Positions 12,940 to 31,644 of a stretch of DNA of 31,797 bases are shown here, one piece after another (the first letter of the stretch is position 1; every line of letters begins with the position of its first letter). The position numbers and the translations under genes were made by a program. The stretch spans positions 1 to 31,797 of the forward strand of contig JACRIR010000050.1 in NCBI GenBank assembly GCA_016215705.1, in the 5' to 3' direction. Below the pieces are notes generated by a model, which was given only the letters and a program-made list of their open reading frames with translations, was not told where the DNA came from and did not search any database. The DNA comes from Candidatus Poribacteria bacterium (lineage in GTDB: Bacteria > Abyssobacteria > SURF-5).

Positions 12940-12972
12940 CCGTCATCCTGAGTGAAGGACTCAGAATGACGG
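12940..12972. repeat. Stem-loop straddling the ends of two convergent genes
   Basis: Arms ccgtcatcctgagt (12940-12953) and actcagaatgacgg (12959-12972) pair at 13 of 14 positions around gaagg. It covers the last 12 nt of the activase gene, including its stop codon, and ends the 60-nt gap after the lipoprotein gene. It could act as a bidirectional transcription stop or mRNA 3'-end protector, though there is no U-run. The motif looks like a dispersed repeat. Confidence 0.55.
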
Positions 12973-15900
12973 GAAGGAAGCTTTTTTCAGATACGGGATG
13001 ATTACCTCGTTCTTGTTGCCGCCGGTTCCGTCATATGTGATCGATACGACCGGGACGCCCGTCTTGTTTTCGATCTCTTGCGCCATCGCTTCCGTGACGA
13101 GAGAAGGGCAGCAAAACGCCGGACTCGTCTGAATAAACAACGTGATGTCCGGATGGCGTCTCACCAAATAGAATATCTTCAACAGGTTGTCCATCGACTC
13201 GCCCGTGTGCTCCAGCCTGACATGATATTGCGCCAGGATTTCTTCCGCTGACTCGTCGTAGAGAGGATCGGGCTCTTTAAGAATTCGCTCAAAATACTTG
13301 TAGTATTTGTTCTCCATGTGTGTTACCGCAGCGATAAGCGCCTTCGAGGAAAACGCGCCGGTGTAATTGCCCTCGATGAACCATTTCCTCACGTACGGCC
13401 TTGTGACCATTTTCACATATGACGTATAGGGCGTAGTCACGACTTCGCCGCCATTGTCTTCGATGAAATGGATCAGGTCCTGGTTCATAATATCGTTGTC
13501 CCGGGCGTACAGGTCTCCGAAGATCGCCAGTTTCGGTCTCGGCGCCGATCCGGCCGACTCGGAGTCGATTGCCGTAAAGCGAGATACGACCTCCGCCAAG
13601 GCGGTTTCTTTCGAGCGATTTCCGCTGAATGCGTCTACCATGATGTCGATGCCAGCGGCAATGACCTTATCAGTTGTTCCCCTGACTTTCTCATATGGCC
13701 TGAGCTTGCATCCCATCTTCTTGATCATTCCGCCGAACATGAAAGCAAAGTAGGTGTTGACCGGCAACTTCAACGAAATGTCCGCAAATGACAGCCCTCC
13801 GGCATAGACACCGGCCTTCTCGAATCCATTCCCGTAAGAGTTCAGAAGGGTTTTTGTGTAGCAGGGGAAAAGGCCGATGTTGCAGGCTATCGCGGATTCG
13901 GCAGTCCATAGGACCGTATTGGACGGGTCAAGACCATGAGTCTCGACATAATCCACGAACTCCTGCGTCATTATGTTCAATGGAATGCACTGACCGGTAT
14001 TGTTTCGCAAGCTCTTGCGGATACTCGTATTGTTCTCTTCGAGCAACCGCGCGTCGATTCCCTCTCTTCGCAGATTCGCCGCCACCAATCTCAACGAGAT
14101 GTTGTCCCAGTTCGGAATGATCAGCGTCTTGTGGGCAAGCTCGTTCTTGTTGGTCCGGATAAAAGGACGCGCGCTCGAGGCCGGCGTTTTCGCAGTCCGG
14201 CCACGGCGGTGGTTCCTGAAGGACCGGATTGCGGCTTCGATCCGGGTCTCGTAACCGACGCTTGAGCTATGTTCATCGAGTTGCAGCACAAGATAGGGTT
14301 TCTTATGAGATTCCATGAGTTTCTTGAAATATTCGATCACGAAGGAATCAGGCGAGCACCTGAAAGAGGTAACCAATACCGGATACGCCCCATCCGCTCG
14401 CGCAGTCGCTTCAGCGGCCTTGAGAATCTCCGATGCATAATACCAGTGGAATTGTTCGAGTAGCGGCCTGACGGACTGCACTCCCTGTTCGTCGCAATGG
14501 ATCATATCCTGGAAGAAAGTCTTGATGCCCAATGACGCAAAGATACGGTGGATGCCCTTGTTCATGGATTCGGAAAGAACGGTATATGGCCTTCCCAAGA
14601 GGACAACGTGGACATCGTCGGTCCTTGCAGATTCGGCTATATAGGTCTCATTCAGTTTTGATAAGGCCGATTTCTTGAACTCGAATGCTTTGTCATAGGC
14701 AGTTGAAACATCCATGAACCGGATGCCGTCCCTCACGATTCCCTTCAGGAGGCGGTACAGTTGAGTCTTGGCGTGCAATGAGGGGTAAAGATACTGTATG
14801 AGAGGCGCAAGGATTTTCGATTTTCCGTCCGCACCCGTGTCGTCCCCGTTTTCGAGAGTGGAGCAGAGCACAGGCGAATATTGAGTGTAATAGCAATACT
14901 GTCGTCTGCCCCCTTTCTCTTTTTTTTCGAGGTAAACGGGCAGGAATACGTAGTCTGCTTTGTCCAACAGATACTTGACATGTCCATGCAGAGCGATCAT
15001 TGGCGCGCAGAATTCGGCGCGTGCAATCTTGCGACCGTCCCTTATGGCTTGATCATATCCCTCGCTGGTCACGGTCGTGATGGAGAGTTCATTGAAGAAC
15101 ATTCTCCAGGATGCCAGGTCCTCATACAGATGAAGCGCTGAAGGGATGCCGATGGTGAGACGGGCGCATCGTTCCGGTTTGGGTTCAAAAGAGAAGGACT
15201 TCCTTCTCGCCTTGAGCAGGTCAAAACCAGAGCGGTTGTTGTCCACACGTCTCTGCACGTCGTAGTCTCTCCCGCAAAGAAAACCGTACGCCACGGGTTC
15301 GCACTCGAGGTCCGCAATAGTTATTTTGCAGTGATTGGCGCAGAGTTCGCACACTTCCGACCTTATGGGGATTCGCTTCTTGTGAATATCCAATCCTTTG
15401 AATCCCGTTGTTGAGACCGCCTGCTCGAGCAGCATGATCGCTGCGCCGATCGCCCCGGTCAGATGACAGTACCTTGAAACGTGGAGCGGTTTTCCCAGTC
15501 GCTGCTCGAACGCCGCGACAAGCGCCCTGTTCTTCGCGGTCGCGCCCTGGAAACAAATTACTTTCCCAATGCTGTTTTCGATGGCAACTTTGGTGAGGTA
15601 GTTTTCGGTTATCGAGTGAAGCGCCGCCGCAAGGACTTCATTCACCGAATAGCCTTCCGAAAGGAAGTGGTTCATGTCCCGTTCCATGAAGACTGTGCAT
15701 CTGTCGCTGACAATCGGAGACCGCTTATGCTCGGTTCGCGAGGAGTATTCCGATAGAGGACACCCAAATTTCTGCGCCTGCTCTTCAATGAAGCTGCCGG
15801 TCCCCGCGGCGCAAACCGTGTTCATCACGGAGAAGGTAACCGCGCCGTTTGCCAACGTTGTGAATTTCGAGTCCTGCCCGCCGATCTCGATGATGGTATC

Positions 15901-17184
15901 CACGTCCGGCTTCAGTTCTATGGCCGCTCGCGCGTGGGCAGTGATCTCGTCCACGACCAAATCCGCGCCTACAATTTTGCCGAGCAATTTTCGTCCGGAC
16001 CCTGTTACAGCGACCGCTGCAATCCGCAAGTCTATTCCTTTCTTTTCAATCATGTCGGAGATCGAAGCGAACAGACTCTGGACGGCCATGACCGGTCTGC
16101 CGGCGGTTTGAGTGTAGAATCCGGCAAGCACTGCCTTGTCGGGGTCCACCAGGGCGGCTTTCGTGCTGGTGGAGCCGATGTCGATTCCGAGATACGCTTT
16201 GACTTCTCCCCTCTCTTTCAGGTCCTCATATATGTCGATTTCGACGGTGTTCGGAAGAATCGGATTCAATCCGGAGTATTCATAACTCTCAACGCCTCTG
16301 AAATCGGGATAATCCGCCAGCCTCAACTCGAGCGGTTCAAAGAAATATTTCTTCTCCCCGATGTCTTGTGCGCAGAGGACGTCGTCTGCCGAGGCAATCG
16401 GCAGAGGATCGTGCAAATGAAGCTCGGCCAACAAGCTCAGTGCGGCGCCAACCGCGCCGTATGGCGCCTTCTCGACGATCACCCGCACACCTGTCATAGC
16501 CTCGATATGCCTCACGACCGCCATGTTTCTCGATACTCCGCCGGAGAAGATCATTGGCGGACGCGGCTTATCAGAAGTAAACAAGGTGTCCACCACATTC
16601 TTCGCCAGACCATAGCACAAGCCATCACAGATTTCCTCTAACCTGAAACCTTCCTGCTGAGCGTGCACAAGGTCGGTCTTGGCGAATACGGCGCATCGGG
16701 ACGCTATTTTCGGGATTCCGCCGGTGTTGCGGAATGCGGTCTTGCTCAAGTCCTCGATGCTGCCGAGGTTCAGTCTCCGAGCCTGCTGATCGAGAAAGCT
16801 GCCCGTTCCGGCCGCGCATGAAGTATTGGCTTTGAAATGGAGACGGCTGCCTCCTTCACTGAAGCTGACCAGGCCGAATCGTTCGCCGCCGACAATCAGA
16901 ATCGCTCCGAATTCAGGATGAAGATGACGGCAGGCCGCAATAACGGAAACTCGATTATCATATCTGCGGGTCGTTCTGAGGATTGGCGGAGTGGAGGTCG
17001 TGGCGGCGATCCAGCCGATTTGGCGCAGGTCGAAGTGTGTCAGAATGCTCTTAAGCGCCTCCGGGATGTTTCCATGATGGAGTTCATAGGCGGTTCGGGC
17101 GATTTCACCTTTATGGTTGATCTCGGCGACCGAAATCGAAACCGATCCGATGTCGACCCCAAGAATATGAAATGGCAAAGTCAT
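12961..17184 (-). CDS. Giant 2-hydroxyacyl-CoA dehydratase activase-related protein (two BcrAD/BadFG ATPase domains plus DUF2229)
   Basis: 1407 residues. Two ASKHA ATPase domains lie in tandem. Domain 1 (about 5-255) has GVDIGSVSISVAEI, CAAGTGSF with Cys123, SRCAVFAKTD with Cys164, and SGGVSRN. Domain 2 (about 331-588) has GIDIGSTSTKAAL, IGGQDSKF, CAAGTGSF with Cys458, and SDRCTVFME with Cys496. In HgdC/BcrA-type activators these two cysteines of each subunit hold the dimer-bridging [4Fe-4S] cluster, so this chain may form an internal pseudo-dimer. Cysteines 612, 615, 619, 628 and 637 precede a DUF2229 region (about 660-900). The last 400 residues resemble the dehydratase-like tail of the family. 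The start is ATG 17184 with ggagggga before it. No dehydratase subunits are nearby. Known activators drive ATP-dependent one-electron transfer; the target here is unknown. Confidence 0.88.
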   Translation of the reverse strand: MTLPFHILGVDIGSVSISVAEINHKGEIARTAYELHHGNIPEALKSILTHFDLRQIGWIAATTSTPPILRTTRRYDNRVSVIAACRHLHPEFGAILIVGGERFGLVSFSEGGSRLHFKANTSCAAGTGSFLDQQARRLNLGSIEDLSKTAFRNTGGIPKIASRCAVFAKTDLVHAQQEGFRLEEICDGLCYGLAKNVVDTLFTSDKPRPPMIFSGGVSRNMAVVRHIEAMTGVRVIVEKAPYGAVGAALSLLAELHLHDPLPIASADDVLCAQDIGEKKYFFEPLELRLADYPDFRGVESYEYSGLNPILPNTVEIDIYEDLKERGEVKAYLGIDIGSTSTKAALVDPDKAVLAGFYTQTAGRPVMAVQSLFASISDMIEKKGIDLRIAAVAVTGSGRKLLGKIVGADLVVDEITAHARAAIELKPDVDTIIEIGGQDSKFTTLANGAVTFSVMNTVCAAGTGSFIEEQAQKFGCPLSEYSSRTEHKRSPIVSDRCTVFMERDMNHFLSEGYSVNEVLAAALHSITENYLTKVAIENSIGKVICFQGATAKNRALVAAFEQRLGKPLHVSRYCHLTGAIGAAIMLLEQAVSTTGFKGLDIHKKRIPIRSEVCELCANHCKITIADLECEPVAYGFLCGRDYDVQRRVDNNRSGFDLLKARRKSFSFEPKPERCARLTIGIPSALHLYEDLASWRMFFNELSITTVTSEGYDQAIRDGRKIARAEFCAPMIALHGHVKYLLDKADYVFLPVYLEKKEKGGRRQYCYYTQYSPVLCSTLENGDDTGADGKSKILAPLIQYLYPSLHAKTQLYRLLKGIVRDGIRFMDVSTAYDKAFEFKKSALSKLNETYIAESARTDDVHVVLLGRPYTVLSESMNKGIHRIFASLGIKTFFQDMIHCDEQGVQSVRPLLEQFHWYYASEILKAAEATARADGAYPVLVTSFRCSPDSFVIEYFKKLMESHKKPYLVLQLDEHSSSVGYETRIEAAIRSFRNHRRGRTAKTPASSARPFIRTNKNELAHKTLIIPNWDNISLRLVAANLRREGIDARLLEENNTSIRKSLRNNTGQCIPLNIMTQEFVDYVETHGLDPSNTVLWTAESAIACNIGLFPCYTKTLLNSYGNGFEKAGVYAGGLSFADISLKLPVNTYFAFMFGGMIKKMGCKLRPYEKVRGTTDKVIAAGIDIMVDAFSGNRSKETALAEVVSRFTAIDSESAGSAPRPKLAIFGDLYARDNDIMNQDLIHFIEDNGGEVVTTPYTSYVKMVTRPYVRKWFIEGNYTGAFSSKALIAAVTHMENKYYKYFERILKEPDPLYDESAEEILAQYHVRLEHTGESMDNLLKIFYLVRRHPDITLFIQTSPAFCCPSLVTEAMAQEIENKTGVPVVSITYDGTGGNKNEVIIPYLKKASFPSF

Positions 17185-17300
17185 TGGGTCCCCTCCAATG
17201 CCGACCGCCAGGCGTCTCACACTTCCCGGACTCAAGGAGAAGTATTGCACATTTTGGCCTCATTTGTCACCTGTTAACAACATATTCTGATTCTCTTCGC

Positions 17301-20873: not shown

Positions 20874-20938
20874 CCTTAATTCGGGGACACCATGCCGCAT
20901 GGTGTCCCCGAATTAAGGGGCGTTTCCTTCACAGTTAA
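20874..20938. repeat. Palindrome of the ggggacacc family with conserved flank (copy 4)
   Basis: 20874-20918 is a perfect 45-nt inverted repeat (arms ccttaattcggggacacc plus atgc around one c). On the minus strand it is preceded by ctgtgaaggaaacgcc, matching the flank of the copies at 24219 and 26285. The gap 20726-21004 holds only this and the hairpin at 20776. Confidence 0.85.
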
Positions 20939-21004: not shown

Positions 21005-21535
21005 TTACAGCTTCTTCCTGAGAACCGCGTGGCATTTTTCGCAGAACCCGTTGCTTTTGAGGTCGATGTCTTCGACCGAGTATGAGAGATACATGACGCA
21101 GCGGAAGTCTCTGCAGTGAATAAGCCCGAAGCAGTGTCCGAGCTCGTGTATGGCTTCTTTTTCACAGCGATGATAGAGCAAGGAAGCGTCTTCCGGCAAG
21201 CCGTAGAATCTCTGGTGCAGCCGATGAATGGAAATGATGGCGGCCGGATTGTTGAACTGCGCCTCCCCGAAAACAAAGGAAAGCGGCGGGATGAACAGGT
21301 CGACGGAGGCTACGCCGAGCAGTTTCGTGTCGGCCCCCGCGCGGTGGAGGAGCAGCCTTTCAAGAAGCTTAGTGGAATAATACTGCTCCCTCACGATATC
21401 GTACGCGCCTTCAAGCGAAATCGTGGAATCGCTCACCTTGCAGGGGAGCTTCAAGGTTTCGGGGAGTGAAAGCGCAAGGAATTCGGTAATGGAGTCGTCC
21501 ACTCCGCCGACGGGAAAGATCAGTATCTCGGCCAA
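21005..21535 (-). CDS. Archaemetzincin-family zinc metallopeptidase
   Basis: 176 residues. The diagnostic pattern is complete: His130-Glu131-Leu-Gly-His134, Gly137, His140, Cys141, Cys146, Met148, then Cys165-x-x-Cys168. That gives the catalytic zinc site (HExxHxxGxxH) plus the second four-cysteine zinc site specific to archaemetzincins. There is no signal peptide, so it should be cytoplasmic. Physiological substrates of the bacterial members are not established. Translation begins at TTG 21535: the family's N-terminal strand (EILIFPVGGVD) starts there, and there is no better in-frame start before the preceding stop. Only two bases separate it from the stop of the sigma-54 regulator, so it is probably translated by coupling and shares that operon. 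Confidence 0.88.
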   Translation of the reverse strand: MAEILIFPVGGVDDSITEFLALSLPETLKLPCKVSDSTISLEGAYDIVREQYYSTKLLERLLLHRAGADTKLLGVASVDLFIPPLSFVFGEAQFNNPAAIISIHRLHQRFYGLPEDASLLYHRCEKEAIHELGHCFGLIHCRDFRCVMYLSYSVEDIDLKSNGFCEKCHAVLRKKL

Positions 21536-21537
21536 AC

Positions 21538-22884
21538 TTATGGGTTCTTGATGTTGTACTTTTTGATTTTTCTATACAACGTCACACGGTCGATATTCAG
21601 GAAGCGCGCAGCCTGCGAGATGTTCCAATCGGTCTCGGCGAGCGTGCTGCGGATGTGTTCCCGTTCGACGGCATCGAGAGTCTTTTCCGCCGAGACACGC
21701 GGCGTCTCGACCGTACTCATCGGCAGATGGCCGACCTGGATCGCATTTGATTTACAGACGACCACCGCCCGCTCGATAGCATTTTCGAGTTCCCGGACGT
21801 TTCCCGGCCAGGGGTAGTTCATCATTCGTTCGAGCGCTTCCGGCGCGATACTCTCTATATGCTTGTTTGTGGTCTGGCTGTATTTCCGGAGGAAGTGCTC
21901 GGCGAGCGAGGGGATGTCGTCGCGGCGCTCGCGCAACGGCGGAATCCGTATGGTGAAGACGTTCAGGCGATAATACAGATCGCTTCGGAACAGTCCGGAT
22001 TCGACGCTCCCCTCGAGGTTCTTGTTCGTCGCAGCAATCAGCCGGAAATCCACCGCGATTTCTCTTTCGCCTCCTATGCGTCTGATTTTCTTTTCCTCGA
22101 GCACGCGGAGAAGGTTCACCTGCGTTTTCTGGCTGATGTCGCCGATTTCATCAAGGAAAAGGCTTCCGCCGTCCGCCATTTCAAACTTGCCCTTGCGCCT
22201 GTATTGAGCGCCCGTGAAAGCGCCTTTCTCATGTCCGAAGAGCTCGCTCTCGAGAATGCCTTCGGGCAACGCTCCGCAATTCAGAATGATCATGGGCATA
22301 TAGCGCCTGCGGCTGTTGGCGTGGATGGCCTTGGCGACAAGCTCCTTACCCGTACCGCTTTCTCCCCTGATCAGGACGGAGGTGTCGGTTTTCGAGACCG
22401 TCTCCACGGCCTCAACCACCTCGCGCATTCCCCCGCTGCCCCCGATTATGTCGTGCGCCAGTATGGATTCATCGAGGCTCTTCTTTAGTCTCACGTTTTC
22501 GGCGGCCAGGTTCTTGCGCTCGACCGCGTTCCGGATCAGATGGCCGACGTGCTCGGGATCGAAAGGCTTCGTGAGATAATCATATGCCCCTTGTTTCAGG
22601 GCTTCGACGGCGGATTCGACGGATGCGAAAGCCGTCATGATGATGATGACGGCGTCGGGATTTACCTCCTTGATCTTTTTCTGGAGCTCGAGCCCGCTCA
22701 TCCCCGGCATTTTGACATCGAGCAGAAAGATGTCCCAATCCTCTTCCGTCAATTTTGCGAGGGCTTCTTTTCCCGTCGAGGCGGAGCCTACGGCGTAGCC
22801 GTCGTCGCGAAACCATTCTGAGAGCGATTTGAGCACTATCGGCTCGTCGTCGACAACCAGAATGCGCACGTTTTCGTTGTTCAT
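21538..22884 (-). CDS. Sigma-54-dependent response regulator, NtrC/AtoC type
   Basis: 448 residues. The receiver domain (6-118) has the acidic pair Asp12-Asp13, phosphorylatable Asp56 (LLDVKMPG) and Lys106 (YLTKP). The AAA+ domain has Walker A GESGTGKE (174-181), the sigma-54 contact loop GAFTGA (221-226) and Walker B SLFLDE. The C-terminus is a Fis-type helix-turn-helix (WNISQAARFLNIDRVTLYRK). It therefore activates sigma-54 promoters when phosphorylated. The start is ATG 22884; the gagggggt site just upstream overlaps the stop of the cytochrome gene. The histidine kinase two genes upstream is the obvious partner. A matching promoter candidate lies at 31456-31470, ahead of the GcvH-like genes. 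Confidence 0.95.
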   Translation of the reverse strand: MNNENVRILVVDDEPIVLKSLSEWFRDDGYAVGSASTGKEALAKLTEEDWDIFLLDVKMPGMSGLELQKKIKEVNPDAVIIIMTAFASVESAVEALKQGAYDYLTKPFDPEHVGHLIRNAVERKNLAAENVRLKKSLDESILAHDIIGGSGGMREVVEAVETVSKTDTSVLIRGESGTGKELVAKAIHANSRRRYMPMIILNCGALPEGILESELFGHEKGAFTGAQYRRKGKFEMADGGSLFLDEIGDISQKTQVNLLRVLEEKKIRRIGGEREIAVDFRLIAATNKNLEGSVESGLFRSDLYYRLNVFTIRIPPLRERRDDIPSLAEHFLRKYSQTTNKHIESIAPEALERMMNYPWPGNVRELENAIERAVVVCKSNAIQVGHLPMSTVETPRVSAEKTLDAVEREHIRSTLAETDWNISQAARFLNIDRVTLYRKIKKYNIKNP

Positions 22885-22897
22885 CTCACAAACCCCC

Positions 22898-24190
22898 TCA
22901 GCGCGTAAACGAGCGCCTGGAACTCTGGCGGTAGCGGGAGGCAAACACGATACAGCCCACAACGGCCCCCAGACTCACAAGCGCGCCAAGCGACCAGAGC
23001 GCCGCAGTCCTGATTCGGCGAAGATTCTCGAAATCGCCGTTCACCCGCTCGACATGGATGCGCGCCTGGAAAATCTCCGGCCGCGCGTTGGGATGACAAT
23101 GAGACTTTCCACAAGTGGTCTTCAAGTTTGAGACGTATATCGAGGACTCCGGATCATTCGACGGGAGAATGTCGTGATAACCGTGGCAACTGACGCACGT
23201 GGCAACCGAGACGATGCCGATGTCCTTCCCCATGCCGTGGTCGCTCTTCGTGAACGTAGACACCTTATTTGTAAGAATGTTGTACTTGCTCATCTTCGTC
23301 ACGTCGTCATGGCATCGGGCGCAGGTGTACGTTACATTGAAGGCCGACACACTCGATTCAGGATTCCAGGGCGCGGCTATCTTGTGCTCGCCGTGGCAAT
23401 CAGCGCAGACGGGCGAATCCGATATCCCCATCTTGTACGCTTTGCCGTGAATGCTTTGGCTGTACGCCAGGTACTCGTTCAGGTGGCATTTGCCGCAGGT
23501 GGCCGGTTGATGCGGTTTCAGGTCGGCCTCGCCGTTCCCCTGGATGTCGTGCACGCCGTGACAATCAGTGCAGACGGCGGACATGCGAACAAGTCCGTCC
23601 TTGAAAAGGGCTTTGCCGTGGACGCTTTGCTGGTATTCCGCGTATGGTTGCTCGACGTGTATGTTGTGCTTCACCACCATCTGCATGTTGTCGTGGCAGA
23701 CGGCGCACGTGCGCGGGATGTTTGCCCTATATATGGTCGAATCGGGATCAGATGCTGCCCTGATGTTATGCTTGCCATGGCAATCCGAGCAGGTGGCAAC
23801 GTCCTTATCGCCTTTCTCGGACGCGCGGCCGTGGACGCTCGTCTTGTACTGCTGCATCGGCGTGAAATTCGGCGCGCCCTCGGGATTGCCTTTGTAGTGG
23901 CAGGATGTGCAGTTTACCAGCGCCAGGGTCTTGGCGTGGGGGATTTTCTCGCTTGCGGGCTGCGTTTGCGGGACGTCGGAATGGCAGTCGATGCATTTGA
24001 GTTTCCCGTGTATCGACTTCGAGAAGGACGCGCGGTCCACATAAATCAGTTGCCTGCGCGCAGTTTCCTTGTCGCCATGGCAGATAAGACATGCTTCGTT
24101 TTCAGCCTTGTTTGACCCATCCGCAGCCCATGCGTCTCCGGCGACTGCTATCAGCAACAAGAATGCCACTATTCCGGAGAGACTGATCAT
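22898..24190 (-). CDS. Membrane-anchored multiheme cytochrome c (eleven heme-binding motifs)
   Basis: 430 residues. A signal peptide occupies 1-23 (ending GDAWAADG), and a hydrophobic C-terminal helix (about 396-417) followed by basic residues anchors the protein with hemes in the periplasm. Ten CxxCH motifs start at Cys34, 66, 94, 134, 162, 207, 232, 262, 290 and 332, plus one CX4CH (Cys360-Cys365-His366). Five S-x-H-G segments (SIHGK, SVHGR, SVHGK, SIHGK, SDHGM) supply distal histidines in repeating modules, as in c3/c7-type nrfH-like cytochromes. The start is ATG 24190; longer readings run into a palindromic repeat. The gene is 170 nt after the kinase and 13 nt before the regulator. A role as electron carrier for the NrfD/Fe-S complex nearby is likely but inferred. 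Confidence 0.93.
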   Translation of the reverse strand: MISLSGIVAFLLLIAVAGDAWAADGSNKAENEACLICHGDKETARRQLIYVDRASFSKSIHGKLKCIDCHSDVPQTQPASEKIPHAKTLALVNCTSCHYKGNPEGAPNFTPMQQYKTSVHGRASEKGDKDVATCSDCHGKHNIRAASDPDSTIYRANIPRTCAVCHDNMQMVVKHNIHVEQPYAEYQQSVHGKALFKDGLVRMSAVCTDCHGVHDIQGNGEADLKPHQPATCGKCHLNEYLAYSQSIHGKAYKMGISDSPVCADCHGEHKIAAPWNPESSVSAFNVTYTCARCHDDVTKMSKYNILTNKVSTFTKSDHGMGKDIGIVSVATCVSCHGYHDILPSNDPESSIYVSNLKTTCGKSHCHPNARPEIFQARIHVERVNGDFENLRRIRTAALWSLGALVSLGAVVGCIVFASRYRQSSRRSFTR

Positions 24191-24218
24191 AAATCTCACG
24201 GGAAAACGACGCCCGTTC

Positions 24219-24280
24219 CTTAATCGGAGACACCATGCCTCAGGGTGTCCCCGATTAAGAGTCGCTTCTTTCACAATTAA
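24219..24280. repeat. Degenerate palindrome of the ggggacacc family with flank (copy 5)
   Basis: Arms 24219-24234 (cttaatcggagacacc) and 24244-24259 match at 15 of 16 positions. On the minus strand it is preceded by ttaattgtgaaagaagcg then actc, the same flank as at 26285-26303. Immediately beyond, cctgcc-gca-ggcagg (24281-24295) forms a separate small stem. All lie between the kinase and cytochrome genes. Confidence 0.7.
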
Positions 24281-24360
24281 CCTGCCGCAGGCAGGCTGGT
24301 CGTTCCTCAAGAAAAGTTTAGGTTTTCGGCTTTCGGGTTTCAGGTTGAAATCTCCTCTTC

Positions 24361-26022
24361 TCAGGCTGCGCTTTCCGTATCTGTTGTCACTTCCTGCTTT
24401 TCGATTGCAGCGTCACGGGGTGACTGCGGCAGCAGGATAGTAAAGGTTGTTCCCTCGCTCAAGACACTTTTCAAGGATATCGAGCCGCCATGTCTCTGCA
24501 CTATCGAAAGTGCGACCGCAAGCCCGAGACCGACTCCTCCGCCTTCCTCCTTGGTTGTAAAAAAGGGCTCGAAAACGCGGCGCGCCGTTTCCTCGGTCAT
24601 CCCGACGCCGTTATCCTGGACGGTCATCTCGACAAAATTTGTTTCTGGGATGTATCGGCAGCCGAGCTTCAGGACGCCTTCGTCCACGACCGCGTCGCAA
24701 CCGTTTATCAGAAGCGCGAGCAGCACCTGCTTTATTTTCTGGGAGTCGCAATTCACATACGGTATTCCGTCGTCGAGGTCCAACTGCAAGTGAATGTTCC
24801 TCAGTGTAACAAGGTGCTCGATGAGGCGGACGGATTCATGAATGATGGTGCGTATATCGTTTGGGGCCAGCACCAGGTCGGACTGGCGCGAAAACTGCAA
24901 AAGGTTCTTCACGATTTCGCCGCAGCGCAGGGCCTCGTTCATTATCATGTCGAGAATTTCTCTGCTCTTTCCGAAGCCGTTCTCGGAGAACTTGTTGTTG
25001 TCGATCCGTTTTATGAGTAACTTCGAGTATGCGACGATGCCTGACAGCGGATTATTGAGCTCGTGTGCGACAATGGCGGCAAGCCGCCCGACCGAAGCCA
25101 TCTTCTCTGCCTGTAGGATTATCTGATTCGCTCTCTGCAACTCCTGGGTCTTGTTTTCGACACGATCTTCGAGAGTCTTCGTCCATTCGGTGATCTCACT
25201 GTGGGCCTTCTTCAGATCGCGCGTCATCTTGTTGAACGAACTGGCAAGCACTCCCAATTCGTCCGACGACTTGGCGTCGATAATGTAGTCCATGTCGCCC
25301 ATCGCGATGCGCTTCGTGCCCATTATGAGCTTCTTGACCGGCCCGTAAATCATGAGCCACACGAACCCCGCGGACACGAGTGAGATCGCGATCATGATGA
25401 CGAGCAGATTGAGGAAAATATTGCGCTGATATTCCGCAATGCTATCGTCAACTTTCGCGAGAGAGATATTGATGTCAAGCACCCCGAGAACCTTCTTCGA
25501 TTCGGGGTGCACGTGACAATCTGCGTTGAAGCACTCCGGCTCGTTTTCTATCGGCTGTATGAGGCCGAGAAGACGCTCGCCCCCATTGACCCGGAATATT
25601 CGAGCCCGGTCGGGCCGCGAGAGCCTGGCAATCGGCTGCTCTTTTGTGTGACAGGCATAGCAGGCTTCGGCTTTCTTATCGACGAACGTGTTCATCTCGG
25701 CTTCGTCGGTGGAGAAGGTGATCTTGCCCTCTTTATTCAGAATCCGGATTCTGTGTATCCCCGGCTCGTTTCCTATCTGTTTTATCGTGTGGTAGAGTTC
25801 ATCGCGGCGATTCTTGAGCATCGACAGACGGGTGCTTCGCGTTACGATGTCGCCGATTCCCTGGGCGCTTGTAAGCACCAGACTCTCCAGGTGCTTCCGG
25901 CTGTTCTCGATGTTGATGTAGCCGAAGACGCTGAAGATAACCAGCGCGCTACCCACCACACATATGATGAGTTTTATGGTGAGGCTGTTTGATATGCTGA
26001 GTACTCTCTTGATTAGACTCAT
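24361..26022 (-). CDS. Sensor histidine kinase with two c-type heme motifs in its periplasmic domain
   Basis: 553 residues. TM1 is about 16-36 and TM2 about 202-225, with a sensor domain of some 165 residues between them. That domain holds Cys121-Tyr-Ala-Cys124-His125 (CxxCH) and Cys164-X4-Cys169-His170 (CX4CH), both plausible covalent heme sites. A HAMP domain (about 226-278) and a coiled-coil follow. The phospho-acceptor is His320 in VAHELNNPLSG. The ATPase domain shows NGCDAV, DNGVGM and EPFFTTKEEGGGVGLGLAV. The C-terminus has no receiver. By known examples of heme c sensors it should respond to redox state or a gas ligand in the periplasm. It probably phosphorylates the sigma-54 regulator at 21538-22884, with the cytochrome gene lying between the two. 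The ribosome-binding site is weak. Confidence 0.92.
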   Translation of the reverse strand: MSLIKRVLSISNSLTIKLIICVVGSALVIFSVFGYINIENSRKHLESLVLTSAQGIGDIVTRSTRLSMLKNRRDELYHTIKQIGNEPGIHRIRILNKEGKITFSTDEAEMNTFVDKKAEACYACHTKEQPIARLSRPDRARIFRVNGGERLLGLIQPIENEPECFNADCHVHPESKKVLGVLDINISLAKVDDSIAEYQRNIFLNLLVIMIAISLVSAGFVWLMIYGPVKKLIMGTKRIAMGDMDYIIDAKSSDELGVLASSFNKMTRDLKKAHSEITEWTKTLEDRVENKTQELQRANQIILQAEKMASVGRLAAIVAHELNNPLSGIVAYSKLLIKRIDNNKFSENGFGKSREILDMIMNEALRCGEIVKNLLQFSRQSDLVLAPNDIRTIIHESVRLIEHLVTLRNIHLQLDLDDGIPYVNCDSQKIKQVLLALLINGCDAVVDEGVLKLGCRYIPETNFVEMTVQDNGVGMTEETARRVFEPFFTTKEEGGGVGLGLAVALSIVQRHGGSISLKSVLSEGTTFTILLPQSPRDAAIEKQEVTTDTESAA

Positions 26023-26284
26023 GTGCTCGTGTTATCCGGAATGTGCCACTCTGCGGAACCCCCTGCGCTCGCACGGGGCGGAAGTAGAAAGACGCGGGCT
26101 CGTTTTCGCGTGTGTTTCCAGATTGCATTGACCGCTACGACCGGAATATATTCTACTTCAATGGCTTGCGTGCGGTCAAGCAAGAGGAGATGCGACACAA
26201 AAGGCGCCTCCGTCTGCCTACATTTTGCCGAGACCGATGAATTCGTCATTCTGAGCATCCGACCCACGCCTATGACGGGTCAAT

Positions 26285-26326
26285 TGTGAAAGAAGCGCCT
26301 CTTAGTTTGGGGACACCATGCGGCAT
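26285..26326 (+). repeat. Partial ggggacacc palindrome with flank (copy 6)
   Basis: The flank tgtgaaagaagcgcc (26285-26299) is followed by ctcttagtttggggacacc and the atgcggcat tip, after which the second arm is missing. The flank is nearly identical to those at copies 4 and 5. Confidence 0.65.
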
Positions 26327-26329
26327 CGC

Positions 26330-26541
26330 CAGCTTATTCGGGGAGACCTTGCCGCAAGGCTAGTGTCATGTCACACTTGAGCCTGCAAGTGTGAGCGTAT
26401 GGTTTTGTAGGGGCGCGGCGCGCCGTGCCCCTACGGGAACCGACAAAACAGAGTTGACAGAACACTAGCTTATTCGGGGACACCTTGCCGCAAGGCCAGC
26501 TTATTCGGGGACACCTTGCCGCAAGGTGTCCCCGAATAAGC
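26330..26541 (+). repeat. 31-nt tandem array of half-palindromes ending in a full palindrome
   Basis: Units at 26330-26360, 26466-26496 and 26497-26527 are near-identical (start cagcttattcgggg, end ttgccgcaaggc). The last unit continues into a complete 43-nt palindrome (26499-26541). Units one and two are separated by the MITE-like insertion at 26364-26464 and would be directly adjacent without it. The arrangement resembles expansion of a BIME-type repeat. Confidence 0.8.
26364..26464. mobile_element. MITE-like insertion of about 101 bp with CTAG target duplication
   Basis: Flanked by CTAG at 26360-26363 and 26465-26468. The ends are imperfect inverted repeats: tgtcatgtcacact at the left, and tgttctgtcaact read inward from the right. 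Inside are a 9-bp stem (tcacacttg 26371-26379 with caagtgtga 26386-26394) and a 28-nt GTAGGGGC-type palindrome (26407-26434). It has no coding capacity. Removing it with one CTAG restores the 31-nt tandem array, where the sister junction reads ccag. A four-base CTAG/YTAR target is typical of IS5-type elements, so a transposase of that kind may have mobilised it. Confidence 0.65.
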
Positions 26542-26575
26542 GGCGTATTTCTTAGGGGAAGCGGAGAATCAGCCG

Positions 26576-26609
26576 GCGCAGGGGAGCCGGGGTTTGAGCT
26601 CCCCTGCGC
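26576..26609. repeat. Perfect 12-bp GC-rich stem-loop
   Basis: gcgcaggggagc (26576-26587) pairs with gctcccctgcgc (26598-26609) around ten bases. It lies about 270 nt downstream of the NrfD-type gene on the minus strand. No U-run follows, so intrinsic termination is doubtful. Confidence 0.5.
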
Positions 26610-26700
26610 ACGCTCCGTCCTCTCCTGCATAAGGCAGAACTTGGTTTCTCTTCCGCTTTGCTGCTGCGACGGGGACTGTGAATCCGTCACATAATTCCTT

Positions 26701-26729
26701 GTAAGGGCGACCCGACGGGTCGCCCCTAC
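26701..26729. repeat. GTA-headed hairpin, gggcgacccg type
   Basis: gtaagggcgacccg and cgggtcgcccctac pair around one base with a single mismatch. It is related in head sequence to the GTAGGGGC palindrome inside the MITE-like element (26407-26434). Confidence 0.6.
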
Positions 26730-26877
26730 GACCGGAATTCAAACCCTATTCATCACCTGTCATTCGCCCACAGTTGCGTCGAGCAAATTCTGCCAAATTG
26801 CGGGCGAAGATTCCCATATCAGCCTAAGCTCTGCGATGCCCTGTGAATGAATTCGGCCTTACAGGCGATATCACCAC

Positions 26878-28086
26878 TCATTCTCCCACAGGCGCTGCCA
26901 TGCCGGCGTTGTGAGGTGTCCTGCGCTGCGGGACAAGCAGCTCAAGCGTTTCCGCCGGTTCCGCCGCCGGTTTTTCTTCCGGGAACACGCGGAGATATTT
27001 GACAGCGGCCGCAAACAGCGCGAAGCCGGCGGCGACGAGGAACATGGTTGCCCCTATCTCCATCCATGAAGGGAAATAATTCGCGCCGGAGGACCGCATC
27101 ATTCCGGTTATGCTCACGTTGAGCCGGTTCATCACGAATCCCATGACGACCATGACGGACGCGACGAACAGGCCGCCCTGGCTTTCGCGAATCCTGCGAA
27201 CGGACAAGAGCGCCAGCGGGGCCACCACGCCGAATCCCATCTCGAGCATGAACATCTTGCTCTCGTGGCTTCCGTCGAGCAGCAACTTGAGGGCGCCCCT
27301 GTTATACAGGTCCTTTGTCTTCAACACAAAGTAGACTGCCAATATCACGAGAACAACGCGGCCTATGCTCGCCAGGATATCCAGTTCCAGCCGCTTGTTG
27401 AACGCGCGTCGGCTCAGGTAGGACTCGAATATCACCATTGAGAATCCGGTCGCGATGGCCGATATGAAGAACATCAATGGAAGGATGGGTGTGTACCACA
27501 GTGGATGCAGCCTGCCCGGAACAATCAGAAACACCGTGCCCAGCGAGGACTGGTGAAGCGTGGACAGTATGAAGCCCATGATCACGAGCGGAATCGTTAT
27601 CGTCTTCACTATTTTTATCGGTTTCTTCCATTTCAGGCGCTCGAAGATGATCGGGCTGAATTCGAGCGACAACACGGTCGTGTACATCATCACGCACCAG
27701 GCTACCTCGAACATTACGGAGTGCGGATTCCACATGATAAGCGGGTGCCAGATGCGGTAAGGCCGCCCGATATCGAGTATCAGTCCGGCGTTTACGAGCA
27801 GATAGCCCAGGAAGGCGCTCAGCACCGTCGAGGGGAGAATCGGCTTGTATTTCTTTATGTTGAAGACGTGCACGATCAATGTAATCGTGAAGCCGCCGGC
27901 CGCCAGGCCGACTCCGCAGAGGACGTCAAATCCGACCCACAAGCCCCACGGGACTTTGTCGCTCAGGGCGGTCGAAGCGCCGAGTCCTTTGAAAAGCCTG
28001 ATGTATGTGACGTACAAGCCCATGACCATTATGGCTGCAAACACTAATCTCCAGAACGTGATCTTAGGTATCCATTTCCGGTTCAT
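26878..28086 (-). CDS. NrfD/HybB-type integral membrane quinone-interacting subunit
   Basis: 402 residues with about ten hydrophobic helices, as in HybB/HmcC rather than the eight of short NrfD/PsrC proteins. Landmarks include VPWGLWVGFDVLCGVGLAAGG, GLILDIGRPYRIWHPLIMWN and PHSVMFEVAWCVMMY, which match the HybB branch. Such subunits exchange electrons between the quinone pool and an associated four-cluster ferredoxin. The C-terminal tail (about 370-402, EEKPAAEPAETLELLVPQRR) is hydrophilic. I chose ATG 28086 with ggag upstream. A TTG at 28110 that overlaps the stop of the Fe-S gene by three bases would add eight residues and is possible. It directly follows the Fe-S subunit gene. No hydrogenase, molybdopterin or nitrite reductase subunit is present in the window. 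Confidence 0.92.
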   Translation of the reverse strand: MNRKWIPKITFWRLVFAAIMVMGLYVTYIRLFKGLGASTALSDKVPWGLWVGFDVLCGVGLAAGGFTITLIVHVFNIKKYKPILPSTVLSAFLGYLLVNAGLILDIGRPYRIWHPLIMWNPHSVMFEVAWCVMMYTTVLSLEFSPIIFERLKWKKPIKIVKTITIPLVIMGFILSTLHQSSLGTVFLIVPGRLHPLWYTPILPLMFFISAIATGFSMVIFESYLSRRAFNKRLELDILASIGRVVLVILAVYFVLKTKDLYNRGALKLLLDGSHESKMFMLEMGFGVVAPLALLSVRRIRESQGGLFVASVMVVMGFVMNRLNVSITGMMRSSGANYFPSWMEIGATMFLVAAGFALFAAAVKYLRVFPEEKPAAEPAETLELLVPQRRTPHNAGMAAPVGE

Positions 28087-28106
28087 ATTCTCTTTTTCTC
28101 CATTTA

Positions 28107-28916
28107 TCAATTCTTCTTGAAACGATCAAGGAAGCGTTTCAGACTCGAACTGTCGTCGGTCCCTTCCTGCGCGCGTTTTTGGGCCTCGTTGATTCTCTCA
28201 TCTTCGAGGACCATACGGCGATTGATAATCCATGCGACGCCGCCTAGCAGCGTCCCGCCCACGAGCACGAAATCGGGAATCTTCGAGAGCACCGACCACG
28301 TAAGCAGCGGGAGCGGTTTCTGGATAAGGTTCGATTTGAAACCGATCTGCTCGAAGGGGACGGCGGCAAGAAACAGCATCGAGGTACCGCCGACCTCGTG
28401 TTCGCCGAAGATATGGGCCTGATATTGGCCGGGAGTGTCTGCTATTCTCTTGCGCGCCTCGAGCAGGAGCGCGCCTCGTTCGCCGAACGTTGTGGCGCCG
28501 GTCGGACACGCCTCAGCGCATGCGGGCATTCCGCCTGCCAGCACGCGGTCGTAACAGAACCAGCATTTCCTCACGCGGGGCAGCGCCTTGCTCCATTCAT
28601 ACGTCGGAACCTGGAACGGGCAGGCCTGCATGCAGTATCTGCAGCCGATGCACTTGTTCTCGTCATAGACCACGGGGCCCTCTTCCAACTTCTTAAGAGC
28701 GCCGACCGGGCAAACCGATGCGCAAGCCGGCTCGATGCAGTGCATGCACATCTTGCGCACGTAATAGTCGCCTCTCTGGAAGACCTTGGTGAATTTGCAC
28801 TCGGAGAGGTCTGTCTGATCGCAGTCTTCCGGCAAGTTGTTCTTCTCGCGGCATGCCTCCTCGCATGAGAGGCAGCCGATGCACATTGTCGTATCTATCA
28901 ACATTCCCTTCTGCAT
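28107..28916 (-). CDS. Four-cluster [4Fe-4S] ferredoxin subunit with C-terminal membrane helix (HybA/DmsB-like)
   Basis: 269 residues. Sixteen cysteines occur in the classic four blocks: CIGCLSCEEAC (Cys12-22), CMHCIEPACASVCP, CIGCRYCMQACP, and CWFCYDR with CAEACP. A hydrophobic helix near 222-243 (IPDFVLVGGTLLGGVAWII) anchors the C-terminus. Unlike HybA, DsrO or PsrB-type periplasmic subunits, there is no Tat signal, so the clusters should face the cytoplasm. The start is ATG 28916 with gaggagg before it. The stop lies 20 nt before the NrfD-type ATG. Together the two would link the quinone pool to a cytoplasmic-side partner, for which the GcvH-like proteins encoded just upstream are candidates. 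That last point is inference. Confidence 0.93.
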   Translation of the reverse strand: MQKGMLIDTTMCIGCLSCEEACREKNNLPEDCDQTDLSECKFTKVFQRGDYYVRKMCMHCIEPACASVCPVGALKKLEEGPVVYDENKCIGCRYCMQACPFQVPTYEWSKALPRVRKCWFCYDRVLAGGMPACAEACPTGATTFGERGALLLEARKRIADTPGQYQAHIFGEHEVGGTSMLFLAAVPFEQIGFKSNLIQKPLPLLTWSVLSKIPDFVLVGGTLLGGVAWIINRRMVLEDERINEAQKRAQEGTDDSSSLKRFLDRFKKN

Positions 28917-28943
28917 GTATTCCTCCTCAGAAACAGTCCCCTT

Positions 28944-28965
28944 TCCCCCTTTCGCAAAGGGGGGG
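28944..28965. repeat. ccccctttgcaaaggggg-family palindrome (copy 3) next to a G10 run
   Basis: tccccctttcgcaaaggggg differs from the other copies by one extra c at the centre. The run at 28959-28968 is ten consecutive G. It lies in the 73-nt gap between the third GcvH-like gene and the Fe-S gene, and could form secondary structure in the polycistronic mRNA. Confidence 0.65.
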
Positions 28966-28989
28966 GGGATTTTGCCGCCCCTCAGTGCA

Positions 28990-29703
28990 TTACGAATTCT
29001 TCAGAAACTCTTCCTCGAACATCTTCCACGCCTCGTCATCCAGCGACTCGAGCAAGCTGTCCAGCGACAGAGCGCCGTCCTGCATTGTGACGCCTACCGT
29101 CTGGAGTCTCGGCAACTGCGCCGCCACCAACTGATGCAGCCGGAACAGTTCCTCGTATACCCACTTGGCCGCTTCCTCCGCGATTCTCAGCGCCTTGATG
29201 TCGGTTGCCAGGTTGGCGGGCTTTATCTTGCAGACCCATTCCGACGGATCAGCATTGAGGCGGCCCGCTGCATTCTCATTCACTGAAACAACGGTTCCCC
29301 CGATGGGCGCGACGAAATCGGCCCTGCGGGCCCCTTGCCGCACCGAGAACAGGCATTCGCCCCGGCGCACGCTTTGTCCAATGGCCGGAAGATCGACCGT
29401 GTCGACCTTTCCAATCGCCCTGCGCGCGAGAGCATCCACACCGACCGCTGCGTCGCCGCTCTTCTCGACCGAGGCCCACGTGTGCCCGCGATGCAAGAAA
29501 GCGTTTGGCACGGGGTGAATTCCGAAATCGTTCAGACACGCAGTTATTCTTGAAAAGCTTGGGAGCACGTGTGATTGCCGCTCGGGCGGATCGGGAATGA
29601 AGAAGCCGTAGACCTCTTTGCCCCGTTTGGCCGAAATCATTTGAATGACCACGTCTACCACAAGAAACGCCAGCGCTATGCCCACTACCGCAATAGGAAC
29701 CAT
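28990..29703 (-). CDS. Membrane-anchored GcvH-like protein lacking the lipoyl lysine (divergent member)
   Basis: 237 residues. An N-terminal helix (2-23) is followed by SAKRGKE, so by the positive-inside rule the rest faces the cytoplasm. Residues about 70-160 have the H-protein fold: HRGHTWASV, AAVGVDALARRAIGKVDTVDLP, and FVAPIGGTVVSVNE. In true GcvH the lipoylated lysine lies four residues before the aspartate in S-x-K-A-A-S-D; here that position is Ala125 (QGARRAD), so lipoylation is not expected. The C-terminal 80 residues are helical and acidic (SLLESLDDEAWKMFEEEF). It starts at ATG 29703, seven bases after aaggag. It is the third of three such genes in a row and lies 73 nt before the Fe-S gene. 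No GcvP or GcvT is nearby. Confidence 0.8.
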   Translation of the reverse strand: MVPIAVVGIALAFLVVDVVIQMISAKRGKEVYGFFIPDPPERQSHVLPSFSRITACLNDFGIHPVPNAFLHRGHTWASVEKSGDAAVGVDALARRAIGKVDTVDLPAIGQSVRRGECLFSVRQGARRADFVAPIGGTVVSVNENAAGRLNADPSEWVCKIKPANLATDIKALRIAEEAAKWVYEELFRLHQLVAAQLPRLQTVGVTMQDGALSLDSLLESLDDEAWKMFEEEFLKNS

Positions 29704-29754
29704 CTCTCCTCTCCTTTCAAAATATTCCGAACATAGGAAAATCCATTTGCCGGC

Positions 29755-30534
29755 TCATTCCGGCTCGTGCATGAAGACGCGGCCGGCGAACTTGCGCCAG
29801 TCCGTCGTCGCGAAGCGGTCGGCCAGTCCTCCCTCGGGCAGGCCGCCATCCTGAAACACCAGACCCATCTTGCCGCTGAAGGCGGTCCTCAGTTCCGCAG
29901 CAGACTCCTCCATCCACCTTTTCGCTATGTTTCCGCGAAGAAGATTCCGAAGGTTCTGCTTGAGATTCCTGCTCTTGACCACCATAAGCCAACCGGCGCC
30001 GTAGGGTTCCCTCGAGAGGGTTTCGGGATTCGCCAGCACGCTCTCGTTGATGGCGACAACTTCGCCGTCGAGCGGAAAGAGCATGTCGAGCTTTCTGGCG
30101 TTTCGAGACAGAGTCCATCCCTTTCCCCCCTGCATGCAGGGCTCGCCCACGCGCGGAAGCTTTATTGAAGAAGGCTCTCCGATGAGCTTGGAGGCAAACT
30201 CATCGACGCCGATTACGGCCGTGTCCGGACTGCGGGGAGCCACCCATGCGTGTCCTTGATGGTAGTAAAACGCCTCGGGCAAAGCGTATCCCTCGACACG
30301 AACAGGAGCGCTGCCGGCAGGTTGTGAGAGAGACATGCCAAGAGACCCGATGATGGCGGAGTCTTCTGCATATGCTCTTTCACCAGTCTCGGCTTCGCCA
30401 CTCGCGCCGTGAAGAACCCGCACACGAACAAACCGGGCAACATGGTCAAAGCAGGCTACGGTGATGAGCGATAAGCCCATCAAAAGGAGAAACGTCAATA
30501 CAACGATTAGGGCCGGCATTGCGATGGGTATCAT
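29755..30534 (-). CDS. Membrane-anchored GcvH-like protein lacking the lipoyl lysine (tandem paralogue 2)
   Basis: 259 residues. The N-terminal helix (4-27) is followed by HVARFVRVRV, again suggesting a cytoplasmic soluble part. Residues 79-190 form a GcvH-like domain (YYHQGHAWVA, AVIGVDEFASKLIG, LPRVGEP, LFPLDGEVVAINE, EPYGAGWLMVVK). The lipoyl position is Ala146; a lysine two residues on (Lys148) is out of register. A conserved tail follows (MEESAAELRTAFSG, FQDGGLPEGGLADRF). It is plainly paralogous to the protein at 30619-31362, with most residues identical from residue 78 onward. Cys133 (GEPCMQGGKGW) is shared with that paralogue. The start is ATG 30534 with aaggagg at nine bases; an upstream in-frame start lacks such a site. 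Confidence 0.82.
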   Translation of the reverse strand: MIPIAMPALIVVLTFLLLMGLSLITVACFDHVARFVRVRVLHGASGEAETGERAYAEDSAIIGSLGMSLSQPAGSAPVRVEGYALPEAFYYHQGHAWVAPRSPDTAVIGVDEFASKLIGEPSSIKLPRVGEPCMQGGKGWTLSRNARKLDMLFPLDGEVVAINESVLANPETLSREPYGAGWLMVVKSRNLKQNLRNLLRGNIAKRWMEESAAELRTAFSGKMGLVFQDGGLPEGGLADRFATTDWRKFAGRVFMHEPE

Positions 30535-30618
30535 GTTCTTTCTCCTCCTTAGGGAAGCCGGTTCACGGTTCACGGTTTGCAGTTTACAGTTGAATCACAG
30601 AGAAAGCTGAACACCTTA

Positions 30619-31362
30619 TTAACCCCGTCGCTCGACCATGAAAACGCGATCGGCAAATCTTTCCCAATCAGCCTCGTCAAAACACTCTGCCAATCCCTCT
30701 TTCGGAAGACCGCCATCCTGGTACACAGCGCCCAGTTTGCCGCTGAAAGCAGACCTGAGCTCAGCCGCAGACTCTTCCATCCACCTCATGGCAATTGCTC
30801 CATTGAGAAGGTTGCGCAGATTTCGCTTCAACTCGCGGGGTTTCACCATTGCGAGCCACCCATTGCCGTAAGGTTCCTTCGTCAGAATCTCGGGGTTGTT
30901 GAGAACGCGCTCGTTTATTGCGACCACTTCTCCGTCCAATGGAAACGGCATAGCGAGCATTCTCCCCTTCGTCGAGAAAATCCAACCTTTTGCGCCCTGC
31001 CGGCAGCGTTCGCCAACGCGCGGAAGCTTTACGGATGTCGGCTTCCCGATAAGTTTGCCCGCGAAGTCGTCCACACCAATCACTGCCGTGCCCGATTCCT
31101 GAAGAGCCACCCAAGCGTGGCCTTGGTGGTAGTATAAGGATTGCGGAAGGGCATAGCCTTCTATGCGGACAGCAGCGTCGGCGGCCGTAGGCAAGACCAC
31201 GACGGTCCGGGGAGTGGAACGCTGAGTGTCGCCAATGTCGAGCGGCCCGATGAAGGGTCCTTCCGGAACCGCTTTCGGAACAATCCCTTTCTTCATGAAT
31301 CCGGAAAGATAGCTCACACCGACGAAAACACCAAAAGTCAGGAGTGTCAGGAAGAGGGACAT
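30619..31362 (-). CDS. Membrane-anchored GcvH-like protein lacking the lipoyl lysine (tandem paralogue 1, first gene)
   Basis: 247 residues. The N-terminal helix (2-22) is followed by MKKG, giving a cytoplasmic C-terminal part. The GcvH-like domain (about 66-178) shows YYHQGHAWVA, AVIGVDDFAGKLIG, LPRVGERC, FPLDGEVVAINE and EPYGNGWLAMVK. The lipoyl position is Gly133, with Lys132 next to it. The tail MEESAAELRSAFSG ... YQDGGLPKEGLAE matches the neighbouring paralogue. The start is ATG 31362, nine bases after gagagagg; two in-frame ATGs further upstream (31371, 31395) are badly spaced or without a site. As the first gene of the presumed operon it lies 94 nt downstream of the sigma-54-type promoter candidate. 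I infer a scaffold or carrier role with the Fe-S/NrfD subunits. Confidence 0.82.
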   Translation of the reverse strand: MSLFLTLLTFGVFVGVSYLSGFMKKGIVPKAVPEGPFIGPLDIGDTQRSTPRTVVVLPTAADAAVRIEGYALPQSLYYHQGHAWVALQESGTAVIGVDDFAGKLIGKPTSVKLPRVGERCRQGAKGWIFSTKGRMLAMPFPLDGEVVAINERVLNNPEILTKEPYGNGWLAMVKPRELKRNLRNLLNGAIAMRWMEESAAELRSAFSGKLGAVYQDGGLPKEGLAECFDEADWERFADRVFMVERRG

Positions 31363-31455
31363 AATTATCATCCTCTCTCGCGTTGAGAAATGCATCCGGT
31401 TGTCGTTAACCTTGCCAGTTCACATGTTGCCTGTTGTCTCATGCCATAGTTAGTA

Positions 31456-31470
31456 GGCAATTTCCTTGCC
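31456..31470 (-). promoter_or_regulatory. Sigma-54-type (-24/-12) promoter candidate
   Basis: On the minus strand: GGCAAGGAAATTGCC, that is GG, ten bases, GC, with GGCA and TTGC in the consensus places. Transcription would start near 31445, leaving about 80 nt before the first GcvH-like gene. The core is near-palindromic, so a plus-strand reading also fits, but no gene follows on that strand within the window. The sigma-54 regulator at 21538-22884 is an obvious activator. Confidence 0.45.
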
Positions 31471-31644
31471 TCTCTTGTGGCGATGGATTCTGGCGTGTGC
31501 AAGTACTTTAGAATGAAGTAGTTACAAAGTCAGGCGGAACCCGATCGCATATGCATCAAAACTCCCCTATAATGTTGCACTTATCATCATAATTTGTAAC
31601 TCACTTATTTCCAATATGTTATGATGTGGCATAAGTCAACGCTG

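Follow-up and report, generated by a model that had tools for sequence, protein, structure and literature searches.

The closest described relatives of the locus reported here are complexes that contain a quinone-interacting membrane subunit of the NrfD family: the Hmc complex of sulfate reducers (HmcA-F), the HybA and HybB subunits of hydrogenase 2, and DsrMKJOP. A 2021 survey of NrfD-like complexes names none with a subunit related to the glycine cleavage H-protein, GcvH (PMC8076601). Here we describe a block of nine genes on the minus strand, running from position 31395 down to 21005, of a 31,797-nucleotide stretch of DNA from a Candidatus (Ca.) Poribacteria bacterium (assembly GCA_016215705.1, contig JACRIR010000050.1). 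This stretch, hereafter the window, makes up contig C225 of a draft genome of 5.47 Mb in size, which probably belongs to Ca. Abyssubacteria. Alongside an iron-sulfur (Fe-S) protein and an NrfD-type subunit, the block encodes three GcvH-like membrane proteins, a histidine kinase with a c-heme sensor, a multiheme cytochrome c, a sigma-54 response regulator and an archaemetzincin. We propose that it specifies a quinone-linked Fe-S/NrfD redox complex whose GcvH-like subunits connect it, as a docking or control interface, with a two-component system that senses heme state, and we put the probability of this reading at roughly 55%.

The gene families assigned in the original prediction, made from the sequence alone, were all recovered: GCV_H three times, Fer4_11, NrfD, HisKA/HATPase/HAMP, a multiheme cytochrome, Sigma54_activat with Response_reg, and Peptidase_M54. 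The Fe-S subunit (28107..28916, minus strand) is an HmcB/HybA-like ferredoxin (Fer4_11, E = 2.3e-23) with a C-terminal hydrophobic helix and no twin-arginine translocation (Tat) signal. Its partner, the HmcC/HybB-like quinone-interacting subunit (26878..28110, minus strand; NrfD, E = 1.9e-31), has 10 transmembrane (TM) helices with both ends predicted inside. The pair thus has the two components that define the NrfD superfamily, a PF03916 membrane subunit and a ferredoxin-type Fe-S partner. HmcB and HmcC are the nearest NCBIfam models, but the scores of 253 and 322 bits fall below the cut-offs of 420 and 550. The same is true of HybB (295 of 450), HybA (201 of 263) and QrcD (152 of 570), while DsrP and DsrO score low at 59 and 110 bits. 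The block also lacks HmcA, HmcD, HmcE and HmcF, the hydrogenase subunits that accompany HybA and HybB, and DsrM, DsrK and DsrJ; relative to Hmc it adds the GcvH-like subunits as well as the heme kinase, the sigma-54 regulator and the archaemetzincin. Because scores were below cut-offs and subunits were missing, membership of Hmc, Hyb, Dsr or Qrc was rejected. The earlier claim that the block has no catalytic subunit and is not Hyb, Psr, Nrf, Hmc or Dsr as known therefore holds. Nor was a published complex with the same subunits found: a full-text search of the open literature, which does not reach subscription-only papers, returned no matching system, and the Ca. Abyssubacteria genome paper mentions neither NrfD nor Hmc.

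The GcvH-like proteins (30619..31395, 29755..30573 and 28990..29703, all on the minus strand) share the fold of GcvH and the lipoate-binding protein LbpA and exceed the Pfam GCV_H cut-off, with E-values of 4e-21 (4.3e-21 for protein 1), 1e-16 and 5e-15. At 73.1, 64.7 and 47.4 bits, they do not reach the TIGR00527 equivalog cut-off of 115.85. An AlphaFold2 (AF2) model of protein 1 (predicted local distance difference test, pLDDT, 85.7) consists of a TM helix (residues 5-37) followed by a domain of the H-protein type and extra C-terminal helices, and in a Foldseek comparison the domain matches the E. coli H-protein (3ab9) at 1.3 A with a TM-score of 0.92. In contrast to GcvH and LbpA, these proteins lack the lipoyl-lysine and carry both an N-terminal membrane helix and a C-terminal segment that GcvH does not have, in which a DGG motif is conserved across the family. 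In an alignment with genuine GcvH, for which the window's own genome has a copy (C165, L001), lysine occurs at the lipoyl-lysine site in 72 of 74 canonical sequences versus 10 of 114 GcvH-like family members. Counted from an invariant proline, the canonical lysine lies at position -8, where only 2 of 40 GcvH-like sequences have lysine; at -7 the same 40 have lysine in 18 cases and arginine in 16, an interchange that argues against a shifted lipoylation site. The GcvH-like proteins are a family of their own, with the H-protein fold, an extra C-terminal segment and no lipoyl-lysine, and this loss makes them unlikely to be lipoyl carriers.

A phylogenetic tree resolved subfamilies of GcvH-like proteins specific to gene position. 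Protein 3 falls in a clade of 16 rows (support 96/90) orthologous to the copy that precedes the Fe-S gene elsewhere (U-type). Proteins 1 and 2, which are 59% identical over the full alignment and sisters in the tree, are a lineage-specific duplication inside the D-type group, whose members elsewhere follow NrfD. The charge after the N-terminal helix exceeds that before it in 37 of 51 GcvH-like proteins, with the opposite in eight, a distribution that predicts a cytoplasmic GcvH domain; the prediction is clear for the U-type (14/16) and weak for the D-type (12/20). An apparent NrfD-GcvH fusion (L128) was not used, since a frameshift lies inside the GcvH part on the same contig.

We surveyed gene neighborhoods beginning from a profile of the window's three GcvH-like proteins, in named genomes and then in further genomes that were fetched. 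In the named genomes, relatives were found in Rokubacteria, several lineages of Deltaproteobacteria including Desulfobacca, Gemmatimonadota, Acidobacteriota, Ignavibacteriota (Melioribacteraceae), Bacteroidota and Ca. Abyssobacteria (for example SURF_17, QZKI01000131.1, L036); the nearest relatives of the window genome are two genomes of the same family, G001 and G002. A set of GcvH-like, Fe-S, NrfD, heme kinase, sigma-54 regulator and archaemetzincin genes recurs in at least seven phyla (L037-L041, L044, L116, L117, L119, L122-L125, L137; also L043, with a single GcvH-like gene). Typically a U-type GcvH-like gene, Fe-S, NrfD and a D-type GcvH-like gene occur with a heme kinase, sigma-54 regulator and archaemetzincin, often with a soluble GcvH-like gene as well, and order and strand vary among genomes. 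The GcvH-like, Fe-S and NrfD genes thus co-occur in many distant taxa, both with each other and with the kinase, regulator and archaemetzincin genes, the opposite of what the original prediction had named as its refutation. Its inclusion of the cytochrome fared less well: the multiheme cytochrome is present in the window, but a cytochrome in this position beside the kinase is restricted to the Abyssubacteria copies (the window, L115 and L116), and the gene is lineage-specific and outside the conserved core. In Desulfobacca-like and Syntrophobacterales loci, a variant that lacks Fe-S/NrfD consists of arrays of soluble GcvH-like proteins with a PAS kinase, a sigma-54 regulator and mostly an archaemetzincin, and several of these loci adjoin HdrA-, QmoC- and FdhB-like genes.

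No hydrogenase, molybdenum enzyme or NrfA is present among the nine window genes, and none is constant across the surveyed loci. All-against-all clustering of neighboring open reading frames did not yield a constant catalytic subunit, giving mainly shadow frames of known genes, together with a small triheme cytochrome, a Cys-rich protein and the Hdr/Qmo/FdhB-like genes beside the soluble variant. The triheme cytochrome and the small Cys-rich protein adjoin the module in five loci, most of them Rokubacteria-like (L037, L039, L040, L126 and L140). In one locus a single gene combines a GcvH-like domain with a 4Fe-4S dicluster domain (L046, 9947-11044, plus strand), near HdrA- and FdhB-like genes.

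The regulator gene (21538..22890, minus strand) encodes an NtrC-type protein with a receiver, an AAA+ domain with GAFTGA and a Fis helix-turn-helix (HTH). We scored upstream regions with a -24/-12 weight matrix drawn from general knowledge of the consensus, with significance (p < 0.05) assessed by mononucleotide shuffles. Sigma-54 sites precede 22 of 46 GcvH-headed operons versus 2 of 41 kinase-headed ones (Fisher 6.5e-6), and strong sites include TGGCACG-ctat-TTGCA (L137), TGGCACG-ctcg-TTGCT (L056) and TGGCACA-ttca-TTGCT (L047). In the window, the promoter candidate noted earlier ahead of the first gene was found again at 31456..31471 (minus strand), though it is modest (shuffle p = 0.025). 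The placement of sites before GcvH operons and not kinase operons suggests that the adjacent sigma-54 regulator likely activates the GcvH operon.

The kinase (24361..26022, minus strand; HAMP, HisKA and HATPase) is consistent with the predicted covalent-heme sensor. Its periplasmic domain has two putative heme motifs, CxxCH and C-x4-C-H, which are carried by 30 and 29, respectively, of the 31 sequences in the group, mostly spaced 43-44 residues apart. The sensor may be related to the c-heme Cache/PAS sensors (GSU0582/GSU0935, DUF3365/Tll0287; PMC12889525), which likewise have a periplasmic CxxCH; it has a distant match to the Geobacter GSU0935 c-heme domain (3b42; E = 1.7e-4), but it adds the conserved C-x4-C-H and has no Pfam DUF3365 match at E 0.01. 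A related c-heme Cache family is reported to show NO-binding behavior (2026 preprint, PMC12889525).

A sister form of the module may link the GcvH-like domain to signaling more directly. In L129, L141, L142 and L143, from four families, a membrane protein with the architecture TM-receiver-GcvH-like-extension, its receiver of the CheY type, has as neighbors Fe-S and NrfD, another receiver-GcvH protein and a heme kinase that belongs to the same family. Neither an archaemetzincin nor an NtrC-type regulator is encoded near these four loci, and upstream of their GcvH and Fe-S genes no sigma-54 site reached significance. Each of the three fusions checked retains the phosphoacceptor Asp along with other residues of the receiver, and soluble receiver-GcvH fusions occur in at least seven loci. 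A receiver-GcvH fusion, with a same-family heme kinase, lies beside a DsrMKJOP-like cluster in the window's own genome (C2, L131, 9564-18055); G001 and G002 likewise have receiver-GcvH fusions (L132 and L133) with a same-family heme kinase. According to PMC6121073, dsrAB is missing from the Ca. Abyssubacteria genomes published so far. The receiver fusions place the GcvH-like domain in the cytoplasm, and as domain architecture they are the best evidence that it may act as a signaling interface.

The archaemetzincin gene (21005..21535, minus strand) encodes an M54 peptidase scoring 166.4 bits against NF033823 (cut-off 145), with the complete extended zinc motif HExxHxxGxxHCx4CxM...CxxC, which is also full in 26 of 30 module copies. 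AmzA and AMZ-tk share the family model and the motif, and the accessible portions of their descriptions report them as single enzymes without this genetic context (PMC3427221, PMC4681839). We sampled 290 genomes drawn as relatives, nearly all of different families, and scored the GcvH-like family as present when a match reached the C-terminal extension, rows being judged by reading (20 genomes). Archaemetzincin (48 of the 290) occurs in 17 of the 20 genomes with the family versus 31 of 270 without it, a difference whose Fisher p = 2.7e-12 is only a guide because related genomes are not fully independent; in 13 of the 20 it shares a contig with the GcvH-like gene and is no more than 15 kb away. 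Since archaemetzincin follows the sigma-54 form and not the NrfD complex as such, its distribution points to the regulatory branch. A second archaemetzincin-like protein that lacks HExxH, possibly a non-proteolytic form judging from the missing motif, lies beside multiheme cytochromes in L144 (G001, C135) and L152 (G002, C7).

In the mechanism we propose, the core would be an HmcB/HybA-type Fe-S subunit docked on the 10-TM NrfD quinone subunit, together with membrane-anchored GcvH-like proteins whose most likely role in the complex is docking or control on the cytoplasmic side; this physical association, any direction of electron flow, the phosphotransfer and the role of the protease are all inferences. 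The kinase would read one or two covalent periplasmic hemes, whose state could reflect redox conditions or a gas such as NO, and would phosphorylate the NtrC-type regulator, which with sigma-54 RNA polymerase would switch on the GcvH/Fe-S/NrfD operon. In the sister form the kinase would instead face receiver-bearing GcvH-like proteins, so that the complex itself should there be the direct object of control. The archaemetzincin of the sigma-54 form probably belongs to the regulatory branch, for example clipping a GcvH-like subunit or the regulator.

The same loci might encode a plain respiratory complex that exchanges electrons between menaquinol and a soluble partner, with the GcvH-like proteins structural and the kinase and regulator controlling transcription only. 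NrfD complexes are normally respiratory (PMC8076601), the sigma-54 promoters fully account for the kinase and regulator, multiheme cytochromes stand beside some copies, and soluble family members have HdrA-, QmoC- and FdhB-like neighbors. Most loci, however, are without a catalytic subunit, and such a complex leaves unexplained why receiver-GcvH fusions with intact phosphorylation residues lie beside the same kinase; we therefore regard it as rather unlikely. That missing subunit, the constant linkage to the kinase and the soluble GcvH-like gene often found between NrfD and the kinase (L117, L119, L123 and L137) would suit a redox co-receptor, in which Fe-S/NrfD read the quinone pool and the GcvH-like proteins relay its state onward to the kinase, as a sensor and not an energy-conserving enzyme. 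Yet the GcvH/Fe-S/NrfD operon is the regulator's predicted target, as expected of an effector, and kinases of this family also occur with no NrfD nearby (L155, L160 and L163), making a co-receptor improbable. A lipoate-binding carrier role, like that of LbpA in the sHdr sulfur-oxidation pathway, would fit the H-protein fold and the soluble relatives beside Hdr-like genes, but is very improbable: it is contradicted at the standard site, where the lysine that LbpA strictly keeps (PMC6067878) is missing here. Chance adjacency of two unrelated operons could be suspected from the 859-bp gap between the units in the window, but is scarcely credible and was rejected, because the same adjacency recurs in many genomes, even though gene order and strand differ among them.

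Several observations weigh against the reading of the block as a redox complex with a GcvH-like control or docking interface. The window's sigma-54 site, AGGCAAG-gaaa-TTGCC, is a weaker match than sites elsewhere, and the AF2 model of the kinase is poor (pLDDT 72, predicted TM-score 0.38), a fold search with it giving kinase-core matches only. The D-type membrane orientation predicted from charge is weakly supported. Soluble GcvH-like arrays with kinase, regulator and mostly archaemetzincin occur without Fe-S/NrfD in Desulfobacca-like loci, so the links of the GcvH-like proteins extend beyond NrfD. Signs of the membrane side of the Fe-S subunit are mixed: a Tat motif in 15 of the 30 orthologues scored would make those periplasmic, whereas the window protein has none, yet its positively charged C-terminus would suit a cytoplasmic tail. 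The Fe-S subunit may thus lie on either side of the membrane, and the earlier proposal that Fe-S/NrfD link the quinone pool to the cytoplasmic side is only tentative.

The block turns up in seven or more phyla together with a heme-sensing control system of its own and a rare protease, which indicates that it is probably a real and widespread redox-control device. More tentatively, non-lipoylated proteins of the H-protein fold may be signaling adaptors that couple two-component systems directly to quinone oxidoreductases (NrfD, Dsr-like and Qmo/Hdr-like); respiratory electron flow would then be switched by phosphorylation of a receiver-GcvH subunit, and in the sigma-54 form an archaemetzincin would act as regulatory protease. 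If so, a widespread membrane redox system, mostly of uncultured anaerobes and deep-subsurface lineages, would be under a built-in heme sensor, its control running through proteins that databases file under the glycine cleavage H-protein family. Respiration might then be controlled by phosphorylating a quinone-oxidoreductase subunit, and bacterial archaemetzincins would gain a testable biological context and a first biological role.

The remaining features concern the layout of the window. The cytochrome gene (22898..24310, minus strand) encodes a periplasmic protein of the cytochrome c7/c3 multiheme type with 10 CxxCH motifs plus CGKSHCH and a hydrophobic C-terminal helix, which we regard as accessory. 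Between the NrfD and kinase genes lies an 859-bp intergenic stretch (26019..26877) bearing a dispersed palindrome, and the nine genes therefore probably form at least two transcription units, one with the GcvH, Fe-S and NrfD genes and one with the kinase. The original prediction of a single functional unit thus stands as gene linkage conserved across taxa but not as an uninterrupted operon. The 27-bp palindrome, GGGGACACC(A/T)TGCGGCA(T/A)GGTGTCCCC, occurs in the window at 3451-3477, 7680-7706, 20883-20909 and 26507-26533, the last an exact copy within the 859-bp stretch, and has exact matches at 84 places in the window's own genome. An IS200-like Y1 transposase of the REP-associated type with a DnaA C-terminal HTH domain, encoded at 56-1030 (plus strand), may mobilize these palindromes. 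The window also encodes a CoA-dehydratase activase of 1429 residues, a fusion protein that includes DUF2229 and HGD-D-like parts (12961-17250, minus strand).

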